DNA from: Oryzias latipes
Lineage: Eukaryota > Chordata > Actinopteri > Beloniformes > Adrianichthyidae
Assembly (NCBI RefSeq): GCF_002234675.1
Contig: NC_019864.2
Span: forward strand, 18,200,082-18,264,081
DNA: 64,000 bases
Direction: 5' to 3'
The notes beneath the pieces were generated by a model. The model was given only the letters and a program-made list of their open reading frames with translations, had not been told where the DNA came from and searched no databases. Positions 36,981 through 61,908 of this stretch are shown here, piece after piece (position 1 is the first letter of the stretch; each line of letters starts with the position of its first letter). Both the position numbers and the translations under genes were made by a program.

Positions 36981-37499
36981 GCTCCATAGATGGTCTCAAA
37001 GAGGCCTTGTTTTTCAATCGCGTTAATCCCATTTTTAGTGAGAAAAATAGTCTAAAATTTTAGAATTATCATACTAAAATTATATATTTACAAAATATAT
37101 ATGTCTTTGAATTATTTTTAAAGATATTGATAAATGCAACCTACATTACGTAGTTTTTACGTGTAAAAATAAACTAGTAGTTTGATAAAACAACAAAAGA
37201 AAGATAAGAACATCATTTATGTGATGTTCCACTATGTAGCATTAGTGAGTGACATTGTGCTCGTTTATCATAGAATCAATGGCATTTTTATATGCTTACT
37301 GCTCAGTAATTGGGTTTGTTTTGTGCAAATTTACAACATACTAGACACAAATTTATCTGTCTTTGCTCCAACTTCAGTAACTGGCTGCATTTCATTGGCA
37401 TTATTTGAAAAGAAATAGTGAGTTCCTGAATGTGCGCCGTGCAAACATAGACCAACATGTCGGGTTTTGCCATTTTGAAAACGGGGCCATAGAGGAAAT

Positions 37500-37722
37500 G
37501 GAGCTTGTGTTACGTTGAGAGGGAGGCGGGCAGAGCCGCAAAGCATTACCCCAGACAGAGGCGGGGAGTGAACACAAGCACAAGAGGAGCAACCCAGGGA
37601 GAGCGAAGAGACAGGCGGCCGCCGCGATGAGGCTGAAAAACCCGCTAAAACGAACGAAATTGGCTGAAAACATGATGCGCTCCATTGCCGACGACGGGGG
37701 ATAGATACGTCGAAAAGAATGG
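37500..37722 (+). promoter_or_regulatory. CpG-rich promoter and first exon of the CHASERR-like RNA
   Basis: GC-rich island (gaggcgggcagagccgc, gaggcggggag, caggcggccgccgcgatg) in AT-rich DNA, followed by a donor at 37723 (gtaaga). A 25-codon ORF (37627-37704) lies wholly in this exon; nothing shows that it is translated. Confidence 0.6.
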
Positions 37723-39481
37723 GTAAGATTTAGCAAGTAATCAGACATTTTGGCCGAAAAATACGGATCAGTGGCGCTTGGCAATATGGTGGAAAGGACG
37801 ACAGTTAGGCGCAGCGTTGTAAAAATGGCCATGGTGTTGTCAGCGACGAATATAAGGAAAAAACTATCTCCTGCTTTAAAATGACTTAAAAATGGGGTTT
37901 ATTTAAAGGAATTGGCATTGTTTGTGTTTCTGTTTTGAGTTAACCTAGTTAAATTGTGGTCATACCAATTTATTCTCGAAGTATTCGTTGTTATTTCAAC
38001 CTACGCATTTAAAATTTCCTTTGTCCTTGAAAGGGCAAATGCTCAAGTCTAAATTTATTCGACAAAAAACGCTGAAACAATGTAATGGCTCATATTTTAC
38101 CCACAATAACGATGCTGGTTGGTATAAACAGTACACTTAAGTACAATTTTGTTAATTTTCAGTTTATTAGATTTTTAAGGTTTTTAATCGGTTCCTGCAA
38201 CGAAATAAAAGCATTAAATAGCAGATTTTGGGCACAACGTTTTTCTTGAGTGGGTAAACCCAGTTTGTAACAAGATTTATGAACGTAATATAAGTCTTAA
38301 TACCCACTTTTTTATTATTATTAGAACAAATCGTGAGAAGTTGTAAAAACGATCTAAACATGATTTAAAGGTATAATTCTTAAACTGTGGACACCAGACT
38401 TCAACTACATTTTACTTTATTGGCAATTAGGTATTCTGTATGATATAAAAGCTCAGATATACTTCGAAATACAAAATAGGGTGTTGGCTTTTAACCCTTT
38501 AAGGTTCTGAATTCTGAAACATTATTAATAAAAATACATTTTCTCTTTTCAAGTTGCATTACTCCTTCAGGAAACTTAAAACCATATTCAGGGTTAAGAT
38601 CTTTACCATACGTAATGTGGTCTTCAAAAGAAAACACACTAGTACTATTTAAAAAAAATAAGAAATAAAATGTAATTAAATTAGTTGGACTTCTGGATCA
38701 AAGTTGTGGCATAGCCACAAATTAAATTGAGTGTTTCAGGCAATTAAAATACACTTTGTTTTGTATGTTGTGTTATATATTTAGGTTTCAAACTATATTT
38801 TTTTAAGTCAAAAGGATTAGTACCACCCTGCACCTAACAAAATGTCCACCGTAAGCTATTCTTGCGTAGATGTCAATGTTTAAAACATATTTATCTTTGT
38901 TACAATTGAGTCAAACTAATATAAACGAAACATTTGTTTTTGTTTTTTTAAATGTGCAAATACGTATTTAGTCTTTTCATTGTTTGTACATTAGATATTT
39001 GCCATTGCATAGTATTTCTTTGTTGGGTTAGGGTGTTTGCCAGCATAGGTTTGGTAAATTTTTAAACTACATAAATGTTCATAATTATGCTTTAATTTTG
39101 CAGACATCCTTCCAGAATAAGTCGGGTCTACGAAGAACAGCGTATTTCACCAAATCGAAATGGTACGTTTTTACTGATGTTGGACCACCTTTTATTTTAT
39201 TATTTGACACAGGAGCTGTGTCGTCTTCTGTTATACTATTGTAGCCACTAGGGTGTGCTGTTGTCTCGACAATTTTCTAATTGATCATTTTTTTATGTTA
39301 AAGGGCTGATGTTAAGCCACGAAAAACTGAAGAACTATGACGTTTGCGCTGACATAAATTGATTGTAAGTATGACTTTTAGGACTTGTAAGAATTGTATT
39401 GACGATTTCTTGCCTATATTTTCTTTGTGTTTAATCAGACTGCCTAGCTATAATGTCCATCTTGCAGGAGGATAGCCAGCA

Positions 39482-39495
39482 CTGCCCTCTAGTGT
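39482..39495 (-). promoter_or_regulatory. CTCF-like motif, reverse
   Basis: On the minus strand ACACTAGAGGGCAG matches CCASYAGRKGGCRS at 13 of 14 positions. It faces the forward motif at 36116, so the two are convergent around the lncRNA promoter. Confidence 0.4.
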
Positions 39496-42400
39496 AGCAT
39501 AATACAATGAAGTTGAATGTGATCAACAAATATTGTAGTTATCCGATTGCTAGCAACGATTTACGGATCGCTTGGCTCAATTTGAACAAACCTTTCTTGG
39601 CTGAAACTAGTGTATACGCTACTGTATTTGAGTACGTAAACTTAAAATGCCTAAAGTAATAATTGAAACATTTAGTGTACTATGTAAGGTCAAAATGCAA
39701 AAAAAAAAACTTTTAGGAAAGCGCTTAAAATTTATCGATGATGCTTATTTTTATCGTAGGTTCAGATTTGCACAATTATTGTAAAATAAAAAGCATTGGT
39801 TGTAATTAATTTTGACCTAGCTAGGGAACCTCGGAACATTTATTGTGAGGTTTAACTGATAAAGTTTTACGTTTACAACACTACCCTGCTAAAAATTACA
39901 TGGACAGTGTGGCCTGTTTAAATGCACACCAAATGTCCTAACATCTATCTGATTTCTCCAGTTATCCGATTTCTAGAGACCATGCAAACAGGATAATCCG
40001 ATGGCCTTTTTTAAATAAGAACAATTATCTCAAAGCGAGTTATTAGATTAGTGGGTGTAGATTTCTCCCAAAAAGTCCCACAGATTCCAATACTCAACAT
40101 TTTTCAATGCTTATCGGATTTGTCTTGGAGGTTTACATTTGGCCATAAGCTAATGAAACCCACAACAGGGAAATCACGCTATCAAGCTGTGGGACAATGG
40201 TTACGTTGGCGACATGTTTACCAAGAAGACATCCAAGAAACGTTTTGAAAAGTAATGGGAAGTTTGAAATTTAACTATTACAGACATTCTTAACAAAAAC
40301 ACATAGAATACAATTATTTGATTATTCAATGTCCAAGGTCAATTGCAAACATCTAATTCCTATAAGAACTTAAAATGAAATCCTCTTTAGCATTTGTTGC
40401 ACAGAATGCAAATGCAACAAATAATTGCTAAAGTTTAGTCACGGTTTGTCTAGTTTATGTTATTTTATAACACTCACCAAAATCCGTTTTACGTTCCATG
40501 CTTGTGGTACTTTTTTTTTTTTTACAAGAGTGATGGAAATTTTTTTATGAAAGATTCCCAAGGCAGTAAATACTTTGCGTAGTTGTAGGTCAGAACATAA
40601 AATTGCGTCATGCCCAATTTGAATGTTCTCCCTTTGGGTTGTTGAGGCAAAATGGATGCACCAAACCCCCTCAGTCCATTCCGAAACTCAAAGCTAACCC
40701 AATAGTTCTAAGTGATGCAGTTTTTTAAGTGACCACTGAAGGCAGATTTTTTTTGTGGGAACAATTTCCTGTGTTCTCCTACGTTAAAAAGTCCAGCGTT
40801 ACACAAAAACGAACTTATGTACTCTGGAAGGGCCTGATACCATTCCAAGTATCAAATTTCAAAGCCTTTTAAGTCACACGATGACACGGTTACTTGACAA
40901 TAACTAGCTGGCATAATATGCCAATAAAAAGGAGACATTTCATTTATTCAAATTTGGAATTTATGGTACTTTAGGAATGGATTTAGTTATAGCCGTCAAG
41001 AGTTCTAATAGAAAAATAACAAATTGATAGATGACCTATGACGTAGATAATACCATTATTCAAGGATCGGATCGCGTGATACTTAACAATTTACCTAACA
41101 GTTTGTTTTAAGGAATGTTAACATGATTTCCGCTAGGGTTCATTGTTTCAAATAGTTCACTTTTTTACCACCACTGTCCAAGGTTTTTAAGCTTCATCAT
41201 TACTTTATTATTGTCTCGTGGTAGTAAGAAAAATATCCTAAATGTCGAGGAAGAGAACAATCAGCTTCCCGTCTATATGTTGATTTGTGGACTCCACCTG
41301 CTAATCCTGTCATCAACACATCATGGGCTAAATTTTATTGGTTGATGCGACACAAATTCTTTGCCAATGTTCAAATATTTGAACTTCTGTGGTGAATATT
41401 TACCACTCCCCAAAACACAATTTTGCTAGAGCTCCTATGTGCCTGTACATTGACTTAACATTGAAACTGGCCGCCCCTGAACAAATCGAGCTCTGTGTGA
41501 ACGTAACATTATGAAGCAAGGATGCCTATTTACTTTGGGGTAATGGCGGAAGTTAAGTATAAGTGAACAATGTAAAGTTGTGTGCAATACTAACCAAAAT
41601 AAATCCCTTAGAGTGCAAAACTGAAGAATCCAGTCTCAAAAAAAGTAGGCAAACATCTGACATCTGACCTAAAGAAAACGTGGTGGTTAGAGAGGTAAAA
41701 ATACTTAGTGACTATCAGAGTTATTTTGACTACAAAGTGTTACTCTTGTAGTTTTTCCCTTTCTCGATCGGGCAATAATTTCCAATGATTAAAGGAAAAC
41801 TGAAAGAAAGTGTAAAAATTGTTACGATTCTCTGCTATTCAAATCAAGTCTTAAGAACCATTGTGTGAAAGTAGCACTAGGCATCATGCATCTCATTAAA
41901 CCAAAATGAGTATCCAATTTAGAATATTATTTTGGGGTGCATAAACATTTTTTAGGGGGGATATTCGTGGGGATATTCCAACATATTTTCAGCTTTCTCT
42001 TTAGTTTAACTTACATGTTGTGTTGTTATATCCATGGTATGAGGTAGCAATATAAGGAACTGAAACTAATTATCTTTAAAGTTAGGATACTTGGAAACTG
42101 AATGTTCATGCTCACATACTGTGTTCTTATCATTTTTCTTGCATTTCTTCCACAGTGAAAACATGAGACCAAGGATTGGACTTTCAAATTGGAAAGAAAA
42201 AGAAGACACCTCTGTAAGTTTGGTCTTTTTGATCTAAATATTTTCATCGTCTTGTTTATTGATACAACTCCAACAATAAAGTTCAGACACATTGTTTAGT
42301 AAAAACGCATCTTTGCCCAACCTTTTCTTATAATACATTACATAGATACATTTCCCTGGTAAGTCAATTTCATAGATAAAAGATTTAATATACATTAGTG

Positions 42401-42559
42401 TTCGCAGGAACACTAATGTAATATATGGGAATATATTTTAATGGAGAAAAAAAGAGAGTTGGATGGTGTGTTACAATATTCAGGGCTGGGGGATATTTAA
42501 CAGTCATGGTTTTTTGTGAGTTCTCCCACTTATAAAGAGGGAAGGTCTAATGTTTTTCA

Positions 42560-43300
42560 TAGATGCACTTTAATTGTAATTTTTTTTAATGAATGTATAT
42601 GTACAATGATGCAAAAAAATATATATTTGGTCAACAACAAAGGCTCGCCCTCATACTTTGTAATGGAACCATGATTACCAATAACAGAGGCCAAAGATTT
42701 TCTGTAGGTCTTCACTCTGGCCCATTCTTCCATGCAGATGTGTGAAGTTTTGAGACTGTTGCTGACAGACTTTTAAAAACCTCTTCGGCTTCTCTATTGT
42801 GTTGAGGTCCAAAAACTGCCCAAGTCACTCCAGAACATGGAAGTGCCTTTTACAAAACCACTTCTTTGTTGCCTTGATGAATCATTGTCATACTAGAGGA
42901 TTGAGCCATGTTTCATCACTCAATGCTCTTAATTATGGAAGGTTTTTGCCCAAAATCTCACCATACATGGCCCTGTCATTTTTTTCCCCCTTAATATGGA
43001 TCAGCCATCCTGTCGCTTTTGCAGAAAACCAGCCCTTAAGCGTGATGTTTTCATTCCCATCCTTCACAGTGGGTATGGTGTTCTTGGGGTGCAACTCTGC
43101 ATTCTTCCTCCTCCAAACACTGCAAGTGGCAGTTATTCCAAAGAGTTCCATTTTGGTCTCATCTGACCACATGACATTCTCCCAGTTGTACTTCGTATCA
43201 TCCAGATGGTCTCTGGCAATCTCTAGACGAGCCTGAACATGTTCTGGCTTAGGCATTAGGACCTTTGAACCACTACAAGATTTCAATCCAATACTATGTA
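42560..43300 (-). pseudogene. Degenerate Tc1/mariner transposase fragment
   Basis: Minus-strand reading of 43286-42933 shows the Tc1 transposase core: ARLEIARDHLDDTKYNWENV, MWSDETKMELFG (catalytic-region DE context), WRRKNAELHPKNTIPTVK, and AMYGEILGKNL. The N-terminal DNA-binding half is missing. Downstream of 42933 the match continues, interrupted by frameshifts and stops, to about 42650. Not functional. Sits in the last intron of the CHASERR-like RNA, antisense to it. Confidence 0.85.
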
Positions 43301-43909
43301 GTGTGTTACCACACTGGTGCCATACAATACTGGTAACAAGTGGAGGATAGAAGAGCTTCTTAAAGGAGTAACAGGTCAGAAGGCTGGTTTTGTTGCTTGT
43401 ATGTAGGAGCTACATAGGCCTATGAATTTTCTGCATCATTATACATCATACAATGTTGTGAACATTACAGACCCCTCTTATCTTTAAAAAAGGAACAACT
43501 CTAAATAATCTGTGACTGTCAGTTACTTTTTTATCCAGTAAAGCTGGTATAAGGTGGCCAACGTAAAAACTAGGGCCAAGATGCACATCAAGTCAATGTT
43601 GACAAGGACATCAGTAGTCTTTTAATAAATAAAATCTTACCTGCTCCATTTGCAATAAGTGGTGACAACCTGATTAGAAAAAAACAAAGTATTTAACACC
43701 ATAAACATAAGAGATGATTCTTAAAAAGATGAATATATTTTAAAAAAAAGAGATGTTTTACAAATCGGATGAGGACCTGCATACATTTAAGCATCACTAA
43801 CCTGTAATTTCTGATGATTATATTGTGCATGATGAGCGCCAGATTCTATCAATGTTAATGCATTTCTCATCTTAAAATTTCATTTTGTTAACCTTAGGTT
43901 AGTGAGTTA

Positions 43910-43985
43910 CACAATTCAATTCAAGTTTATGTATGTAGCCCAATACTACAACAATAGTCGTCTCAAAGGGCTTCATGCCGGAAAT
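43910..43985. repeat. Dispersed repeat fragment (ttcaattcaagtttatgtat type)
   Basis: 'acaattcaattcaagtttat' followed by 'gtagcccaatactacaacaa' and 'gtctcaaagggctt' resembles a very common teleost repeat tail (..tttatatagcgccaaatca..caaggcgctt..). Only about 75 bp remain. Confidence 0.55.
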
Positions 43986-44788
43986 TATACGTTAAATTGT
44001 AAGTTAAAATCAATCCCTCAATAACTATTGTGCAGTCTAGTCAGTTTTACAGTGAAATCACTTCTTTCCACAATACCTGGAGGTACATTTTGTTTGACCG
44101 ACTATCTCCATTAAATTAAAATTTTACCATTACCGGACAAAAGACCGGTTAATAGGTTTTCTTGATGGATCTTTTATTTTTTTTTATAAACAAAAAACAG
44201 GGACTCAAATTATTTTTATCTTACTTAAGACTTAAAACATTTTAATGTAAATTGCAAGAAGCCTAAATTAATTCAAAGTAGCTTATAATGATAAGTAATT
44301 TGGTTTAGTGTTCCCTCCTGTTGTATCTTTGGGCAATAAGTCAACAATTTCCGCCAACTCTTTCTCACTGTTACCAAATTCTTGTATTTTTTTTTTTATC
44401 ATATCAAATTAAAAAATAAACAACAATAATTAAACATTAATTAACTTTTAGTTTTGTTAGACAATGCCAAAAAGCTATTTGCATACCTAACTGTTGTGCT
44501 CTACGATGTCAGTGTAGTGTAATTAAGACTGCCCGAATGTCTCCTTAATTTAATTTCTATAATTATATACCCCTGGTGGTCACTTGGTGAATTTTTCGTA
44601 AACCTTTGGTTTACTTTTCCAGAAGAGTTCAGTAGGGATTCAGTAAATATTTTTATAAACGGAAGTATTGTTAACACATTGGCAGGTCTGACTGGTAAAG
44701 TGCAACTTAGTTCATCACTTCTCTTTTTGTAATGTCTTACTAACAATTGCGTAGAATGATAATGTTTTTATTTTATTTGTGATATTAC

Positions 44789-46072
44789 CAGTGATGAAAG
44801 TCTTCCGGGAATTCCCGGAAATCCGGGTTTTTGAGCAAACCGAACGTACTTTCCGGGAAATAAAGACCTGATCTCTACGGACAAATCGCTTTCCGGATTA
44901 AAAAATGGTCTGAAATCAGCTACTTTTAGCTTTATTTTCTATATTTCTCCGCAGATCGCTTCCTCTATGGTCGTGGCCATCTCTCGTCTTCCCGGCCTAA
45001 TTGACCAATGACGGGACGTTTTAGTTGCTTTCGGATGCGTCGACGGGTCTGATTGGCTCTGTCTGCACCACGTGGTCAGCGTGACTTGATTCCCTAGAGA
45101 CCAAAACTGGCGGACCCACGCTAAACTTTCACAAACACATCTGAAGAGTTTGCGATCAAATTTGTGTTAAAATAATGGCAGGCATCGTCATTATTGAGCG
45201 TGGTCACGACCTCAGTTGTGAGAAGACGATAAAAAACAAATTGAAGTGGTCTTGGCTGGAAAAAAAAGATTTTTAAGGTAGTGTAGGTCAAATACTTTTT
45301 TGTGTAAAATAATCTCAAAACCACATTTTGAAATAATTTCAATTTTAGTTTTGAGTTTCAGTTTTTATTTTGAATACATTTCTTTATCTAATTTATTTGT
45401 ATTTCCTAATTACCATGATTTAGTTCAGTATAGTTGACATTAATTATAAGTATTTGATGGTTTGGACCCGCACTCCCTTAAAAAATAATGTTTACAATGT
45501 TTAGTTTAGTTTGTATGTTTGTTTTGATATTTCCCAGATTACTTAGTATTGGTGTTAAAGAATTGATGTATTATGTTATAGAATTATAGTTTAAAGCAGA
45601 TCCCATATTTTGATGTAATTATATTTTGAGAAAACAGTGCAAGTGGATGTTGTACATCAGTCATTTCTAAAGCAGAAATAATGTATAAATAACTGAGGTA
45701 TTTTCATAGAATATCATAGTTACTGGTGTTCTTTTTGCCATTTGGGGCTTTGATGTTACTATATTTTAGCAATTGTATGTTTTGCAGCTTTAAGGAAAAG
45801 CGTAGATTGTAGGATTGTGTTACTTTGAGCAATTTTCCAAATTCTTTTTTAGGACCAGCAAGTCCTTAATGGAGAGTCAAACTAGGGGTTTGAATGACAA
45901 ATCATGATGCTCCAATTAGTCTTAGTTTCTTGATAAAGAAGTGAATAACTAGTTGCCAGAATGCACCAGAATGCATCTAAGACCACGTATTTTTCCAAAA
46001 TTTCGCTCTGTGCCCGCCATATCGCTCAAAGAAAAGTTCAGGGATTTTTTCCTTGCCTGACTTTCATCACTG
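44789..46072. mobile_element. Non-autonomous DNA transposon with 14-bp TIRs
   Basis: Termini CAGTGATGAAAGTC (44789) and GACTTTCATCACTG (ends 46072) are perfect inverted repeats. The flanking hexamer TATTAC is directly repeated (44783-44788 and 46073-46078), suggesting a 6-bp target duplication. Length 1284 bp; no transposase ORF. The left third is GC-richer and includes 'ttgaccaatgacgggacg' and 'caccacgtggtcagcgtgac'. It ends 363 bp before the last exon of the CHASERR-like RNA. Confidence 0.8.
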
Positions 46073-46745
46073 TATTACGCTTATATCTTGGTAAGATTTC
46101 ATTGTCTTAAGTTTCTGACTAAAATGTTTGTCTACATTTTATTCCTGATCTTAATCAGAATTCACATTGGTTCGATGTTAGCGCAATTATTTGGCATAGG
46201 ACTTTTTTGTGAGAAAAAAAGTTTTTTGTTTTATACTTAGTTTTCAGAAATGTAAATCGAAAATGCTTGGTCTTCTGTGTTTGCTAATGAAACTTGAGGT
46301 TTTCTCAAATTGAATTTTTTGTTTTAGTACATTAGATTTGCTTTTCTTAATTGATTGTAAGTCATGTGTTTTTCCCAATTTCGGATACACTGTGGGCTTA
46401 CTACTTTTCCTTCTTTTTTTTTTTATCCTATCAAGAACCCATTCAACTGGATATTACGGAAGTGGACACAGCATTGTTTAAATGGAAGATGGTCACCAAT
46501 TTGGCGATTGGCCAAATTTTAACAAGATGGAACTTTACTTTTCGGGCTTGGACATAAATGTTTAAAATTGTTTTTATTTTATTTATTTTTTGGATCCTTT
46601 TTCTTGACCACCACATGGACTTTGGGATCATGCTTACTGTTGGATGTGCTGACATTTTAATTTCTGTTTTTGGGAAACTCAAAATCAGTGTTTGTACATT
46701 TGAAATCCAGATGTTATCTTAAATAAAGTGTATGTTCTTCATTGT

Positions 46746-48224
46746 TTTTTCCCCCGCTGGCTTTGTTTCAAAGAGATCGGTTTGCAAATCAAGCCAATTG
46801 TTTTCGCATGAATGTTGGTTCTGTATCGAATGATGATCAAAATGTATCAGAGGTCGATTATTCAGTTGATTGCGTTTTTATTGTTTTCAGAAGAAAACAA
46901 AGAATAAATTATGAAATGGTAAATAATTTGAATTTTTCTATTGAAATTTTTAACTTCAGATTTCACTAGCTTTAAATAAATCTGTGATGGTGTCAAAGAA
47001 ACAAGGAACACAATAATCCATGAGGTTATGGTTTCCATCTGAAATGGTTACCAGTACCTAGCTTGGAAGGCTTTCTAAGATGGCCACTATTTTGTCCGTC
47101 TTCCTGTCTGAAAAGGAAGTGATGCAATTGGTTGCAAAATTTATTCTTTTACTCTATCTTTTTTTATTAAGTGAGAGAAAGCTCTTGTTTTGGTCATTTA
47201 CCTTAAGGCATAAAATAAATGTAAGTTTCTATAAAAGTATTTTTTTAAACCTTATAAAAGGGGAGGGACTTGGACATCACCTGAGAGTGGGGTAAATGAA
47301 AATAACGTCAATCAAAAGCAAAGCTTTCAGAGCAGGGAAGGAGCTCTAGATGGCGGTTGAGCCTTGGGAAAGGTGCCAGTTTTTCGGACCGTTTTTTGCT
47401 CGATAGCGTTTGATACTCGATTGATTTAGTAAGCGGATGTTATTCGATGACATTTTCTACGGATTTCTATGCGTTTTAGGTGGTTTTTGTGCTGTTTTCC
47501 GTGAGCTGAAAGAGCCGTCTGCTGGCGGAGTGCTTGTCGTTGTTTTCCATTCTGGGCTCTGGCAGCCATGGCGCGCCTCCATTTTTAGTGATCTCTGCTC
47601 GCCTCTGTCGGTGCAGACAGTGTTAGCCGATGCAGACTGTAAAGGCCTACATGCTTTTTTTGGGAAACAAAATAATTATTTTTTTTTTTTTTACAAATGA
47701 CTAACCTCTTACTTACACGGCGTATTTGTATTTTTGTCACGTATGTTTAGATTTCCACGAAGAAAACGGGAATCTAATCGTTTGTTTTTCACGCGAGCGA
47801 TTTTCTTTGTATACAATTGTAATATTTACATTACGGCATTTATCATTATGTTTTTTCTGTCCGTAAATATAGTTTTTCGAAAGCTTCTTGTGATGACGCA
47901 GTTAAAATTTACGACAAGCGGCTTGATCCATGGACTATTTTGAAAGTGACCGAACATTGAACAGACCACCAGAGCCACAGCACCTGTTTTTGTTCTAGGC
48001 TTTATTCAAGTGAGCGATTAGTAGTTTTAGGTAAATAAGTCGATTTGAGGCCATTTTCTTAAGTCCGGTCGCAAACGCCTGTTTTTTTTTTAACCTGCTA
48101 AAGCACCCGAGCTAAAGCAGTCCAATGGGACTTGTATGATAGTTGAAGCTTCCTCTTAACTTTTTGACAGCAAATACCAGGACACAAAACGCCACCACTG
48201 TATCAGCTTTTTGAGACGGCAACG
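46746..48224 (+). promoter_or_regulatory. chd2 promoter and 5' UTR region
   Basis: Between the lncRNA poly(A) signal and the chd2 ATG. The sequence becomes richer in CpG and G/C words from 47080, with two YY1-like motifs (aagatggccac at 47077, agatggcgg at 47348) and 'gcagccatggcgcgcc' near 47560. A donor-like gtaagc at 47429 and an acceptor cttttttgacag-like site ending 48171 suggest a noncoding exon 1 spliced to the exon with the start codon. The exact structure is uncertain. Confidence 0.5.

Positions 48225-61908
<13,684 letters not shown>

Follow-up and report, generated by a model that had tools for sequence, protein, structure and literature searches.

The locus directly upstream of chd2 in the 64,000-nt stretch of DNA that we analysed (the window) is very probably the CHASERR ortholog of medaka, or of a near-medaka Oryzias, giving rise to a spliced and polyadenylated long non-coding RNA (lncRNA) that is transcribed towards chd2 from its own CpG-rich promoter. 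Orthology is well supported because of the tandem place, the conserved CpG promoter and exon 1, the 711 nt length of the spliced model and the motifs of the last exon, whereas the exact exons of the original prediction are unproven. A teleost CHASERR had been put forward there as an inference, but it is already in print (PMC6841665, PMC7798263); the main claim, a fish CHASERR, is known from reports of 2019–2021, and medaka either adds a fish to those reports or is among the ones they list. Chaserr was described as a polyadenylated lncRNA of five exons, encoded on the Chd2 strand ahead of that gene; its tandem layout, its exon structure and some of its sequence were reported to be conserved across vertebrates, as was the finding of a homolog in every vertebrate examined, with zebrafish RNA-seq shown (Rom 2019, PMC6841665). 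Fish CHASERR also appears in Ross 2021 (PMC7798263), whose main text mentions medaka once, for Cyrano. The features of the medaka locus are:

37334–37748, + strand: promoter, exon 1 and start of intron 1, conserved with the P0122 contig by tblastn; inside or beside the CpG-rich stretch 37351–37850
37500–37722, + strand: candidate exon 1; start approximate; donor ATGG/GTAAGA, rank 4 of 594
39104–39162, + strand: candidate exon 2, 59 nt; acceptor rank 8 of 517, donor rank 5 of 594; not above chance
39304–39364, + strand: candidate exon 3, 61 nt; acceptor rank 36 of 517, donor rank 22 of 594; weakest of 31 short-exon candidates
42156–42213, + strand: candidate exon 4, 58 nt; acceptor rank 6 of 517, donor rank 39 of 594; not above chance
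46436–46745, + strand: candidate last exon; mediocre acceptor, rank 78 of 517; AATAAA at 46722
46480–46492, + strand: AAATGGA (46480) overlapping AAGATGG (46486), CHASERR motif 2 and motif 1
46524–46530, + strand: second AAGATGG, from the motif scan
47077–47083, + strand: third AAGATGG (AAGATGGCC), beyond the first poly(A) signal
48225–61908, + strand: chd2 coding region, script-predicted, some exons mis-spliced

A simple splice-and-codon script predicted 39 exons for chd2 on the + strand, from an ATG at 48225 to a stop at 61908. Among the best 120 of the 1315 proteins with E < 0.001 (7962 scored), the top match of the predicted product was Oryzias latipes CHD2 (88% over the whole length), with O. 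melastigma next (84%). The alignment with O. latipes CHD2 contained 55 mismatches in 1891 columns and the remaining difference consisted of gaps, which we put down to mis-spliced exons of the script model. Pfam domains in the region were chromo, SNF2, helicase-C and CHD1-like C-terminal. By comparison with solved structures, the chd2 piece was closest to CHD1, and CHD2 and CHD1 were not separated; it was the protein search that told them apart, and we therefore read the downstream gene as CHD2 rather than CHD1. No relatives of a chd2 exon were confirmed in bacterial/archaeal or viral contigs (81 and 8 pattern matches, respectively). Upstream, the + strand carries OATP-like and sialyltransferase-like exons and the − strand a FAM174-like exon, whose match of 23.3 bits is below the Pfam cut-off of 27.7. 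We take the human gene order at 15q26 to be SLCO3A1, ST8SIA2, FAM174B, CHASERR, CHD2, and read the order in the window as the same. In agreement with the original prediction of an end about 1.5 kb before a same-strand chd2 ATG, the model stops at 46745, 1.48 kb before that ATG. This end is directly upstream of chd2, less than 2 kb from its presumed start; the gap to that start (47348, AGATGGCGG) is about 0.6 kb. Around it (47.3–47.7 kb), CpG o/e is near 1 and G+C is too low for the region to pass as CpG-rich.

The CpG richness of the proposed promoter proved real. When the whole window was scanned for stretches with GC ≥ 0.5 and CpG o/e ≥ 0.75, 37351–37850 had the highest CpG o/e (1.22) of the 16 that passed, and no other stretch from 34.3 to 54 kb passed. 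When the frame antisense to exons 1–4 was used as a protein query, two matches at E ≤ 10 were obtained among 127 candidates: P0121 is the frame of the window itself, and P0122 is 138 aa long and comes from a 4871-nt contig. Aligned to the window by tblastn, P0122 gave three collinear blocks in three different frames, at 37748–37473 (78% of 92 aa), 37476–37441 (10/12) and 37402–37334 (12/23). As the match crosses three frames, we read it as DNA conservation of the promoter, exon 1 and the start of the intron, the conserved block with the donor measuring 415 bp. Judged from sequence, the candidate lncRNA thus appears to have its own G+C- and CpG-rich predicted promoter at 37351–37850, and a conserved one. 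Over the exon-1 donor, ten residues are identical between P0122 and the window frame and, by the genetic code, the donor GT should be fixed in P0122 because a conserved Thr codon lies there; this donor is the only proposed splice site with comparative support. Both P0121 and P0122 follow unspliced DNA, and neither implies splicing.

Antisense to exon 1, a 165-aa open frame occupies 37401–37898 on the − strand, with P0122 as its one database relative. Protein coding on this strand was considered, given the open frame and its relative, and rejected, since the match changes through three frames. The frame, for which a single relative is known, most likely reflects conservation of the DNA, and a short peptide may come from it.

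The last exon provides the motif evidence. Published CHASERR carries motif 1 (AAGATG) and, in many cases, motif 2 (AAATGGA) in its last exon (PMC7798263), and the predicted medaka last exon, on which this comparison depends, contains two AAGATG, each followed by G, and one AAATGGA. The AAGATGG pair was found where the original prediction had placed it, at 46486 and 46524, 38 bp apart, as was the AATAAA at 46722. Two AAGATGG in the last exon are rare by shuffling (P 0.00025) and by a Poisson estimate at that place (P about 7e-4), as is AAGATG twice (shuffle P 0.0016); looser forms are less striking (AARATGR, 0.017; ARATGR, 0.022; ATGG, 0.20). If any place in the 64 kb and either strand is allowed, the P for two copies within 38 nt is about 0.075, and we rejected the pair as a window-wide signal. 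Therefore, it is the position that carries the weight of the motif evidence. The AATAAA at 46722 is followed by T/GT-rich sequence; alone it means little, because 14 AATAAA occur on the + strand of 37400–47000. Beyond the predicted end, further AATAAA are present on the + strand at 46903, 46975 and 47214, and the third AAGATGG (47077) would be transcribed as part of the lncRNA only in a longer isoform reaching the one at 47214. The protein search found no database relative of the antisense frame of the last exon, and the predicted fold of this exon is ordinary (z −0.13, with 41 of 100 shuffles at least as stable).

AAGATGG is similar to the YY1/TISU core. The AAGATGG copies might thus be YY1-type DNA sites between the end of the lncRNA and the chd2 promoter, and not (only) RNA motifs, a reading that is compatible with CHASERR orthology and that we consider unlikely. 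It would fit two + strand sites, AAGATGGCC at 47077 ahead of the presumed chd2 start and AGATGGCGG at 47348 on it, as well as the YY1 ChIP reported for the promoter of human LINC01578 (PMC7718957), but both AAGATGG of the last exon lack the C after ATGG, and strict sites (A.ATGGC[GC]) are common, 19 of them being present when both strands of the 64 kb are counted. Furthermore, oligos directed at the last-exon RNA motifs, two of three singly or in a mixture, raised Chd2 in mouse cells (PMC7798263). At the lncRNA promoter, an ATGGC does exist at 37469, but its core is absent from P0122, and YY1 was rejected there. Dual use of the array from 46486, 46524 and 47077 to AGATGGCGG at 47348, as an RNA element and a YY1-like DNA element, has slim odds in our view; the P for three AAGATGG within 591 nt, at any place in the window, is about 0.04.

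Returning to the CHASERR model, we scored its splice sites with a splice-site matrix and ranked them among the 594 GTs and 517 AGs of 37.4–47.3 kb. All four GT and all four AG were present as given, and the lengths of exons 2–4 (59, 61 and 58 nt) were exact. The sites had been called good, and this stood for the dinucleotides and several high ranks (donors 4, 5, 22 and 39; acceptors 8, 36, 6 and 78), but not for a structure above chance, since shuffled sequence matched it. The real + strand contained 31 short-exon candidates (40–150 nt, score ≥ 7.4) and the − strand 20, whereas 200 dinucleotide shuffles gave 35.0 ± 8.9 (P 0.68); the best of the real candidates, exon 2 (score 10.34), was equalled or exceeded in 95.5% of the shuffles. 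Splice sites as proof of the five-exon model were ruled out, as candidates are no commoner than in shuffles; for this reason the chain is a fair guess and not a measurement, its exact exons unproven. The longest ATG-started frame on the + strand of the 711-nt spliced model is 54 aa, and by frame length the candidate transcript would be non-coding.

With the four proposed junctions predicted only, and no better than chance, the CpG block, which lies on the chd2 strand, could instead serve chd2 as an alternative promoter further upstream; exon 1 would then join the chd2 ATG exon (acceptor near 48171), and what the model takes as its last exon would be intronic. We regard this as quite improbable, since the motif 1 and motif 2 pair and the AATAAA sit where the last exon of CHASERR is expected and start, poly(A) and RNA-seq data mark the mouse transcript as independent of Chd2 (PMC6841665). 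A lineage-specific lncRNA unrelated to CHASERR, or a CpG block that is silent, with motifs present by coincidence, would agree with the chance-level splice sites and the P of about 0.075 for an AAGATGG pair within 38 nt anywhere, but it is very improbable given that place, strand, conserved promoter, motif 1 and motif 2 all coincide and that homologs are published for every vertebrate examined (PMC6841665). The points that count against CHASERR orthology are the shuffle-level splice chain, the pair P of 0.075, a last exon with no relative and the sub-cut-off FAM174 match.

No Rfam family reached its gathering score in the window, and six weaker matches in 36.5–48.5 kb were taken as chance. Within 37.4–47.0 kb, no repeats were found that explain the candidate exons. 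Two transposon-related features lie in the long last intron of the model: a DNA-transposon-like insert of 1284 bp (44789–46072), which ends in perfect 14-bp inverted repeats (CAGTGATGAAAGTC) and shows a 6-bp target-site duplication (TATTAC), and a Tc1/mariner-type transposase remnant (42936–43409, − strand; Pfam HTH_Tnp_Tc3_2, E 2.6e-5, below the curated cut-off).

The medaka locus resembles CHASERR (LINC01578, 1810026B05Rik) in its tandem position on the CHD2 strand, its own promoter, five proposed exons and a poly(A) signal, and in a last exon with AAGATG twice and AAATGGA; it ends before CHD2, and its 711 nt fall within the published range of 579–1313 nt (PMC7798263). In contrast, the gap to the presumed chd2 start is about 0.6 kb in medaka and about 2.2 kb in mouse, and the two starts are about 10 kb apart compared with about 17 kb, the medaka transcript and its exons being predicted. 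In mouse, Chd2 rises when the promoter or the body of Chaserr is lost or its RNA is knocked down, and a feedback via transcriptional interference across the short gap was proposed, with a role for the RNA also supported (PMC6841665). DHX36 was validated as Chaserr-bound (PMC7798263). The yeast SRG1-SER3 pair, raised in the Discussion of Rom 2019 (PMC6841665), is similar in that same-strand upstream non-coding transcription represses the next gene; however, the SRG1 3′ end overlaps the SER3 promoter, with starts about 500 bp apart, whereas the predicted medaka RNA stops before chd2.

By analogy with mouse, transcription of the lncRNA across the short gap would hold chd2 down in cis, and the gap of about 0.6 kb suits transcriptional interference. 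The AARAUGR elements of the last exon may help in this repression, which would act as a feedback that senses CHD2 protein. For medaka itself we infer transcription and splicing of the locus, the exact exons, a motif-binding protein and repression of chd2. Repression of CHD2 in cis by CHASERR comes from mouse and human cells (PMC6841665), and a search by titles and the openings of abstracts in the zebrafish, teleost and medaka literature found no functional study of CHASERR in fish; a cis control of chd2 common to bony vertebrates thus extrapolates from those cells. The dosage of CHD2 is important in human epilepsy, and CHASERR has been discussed as a drug target (PMC6841665). Medaka is a genetic model fish, and a CHASERR copy there would make this cis control testable outside mammals.
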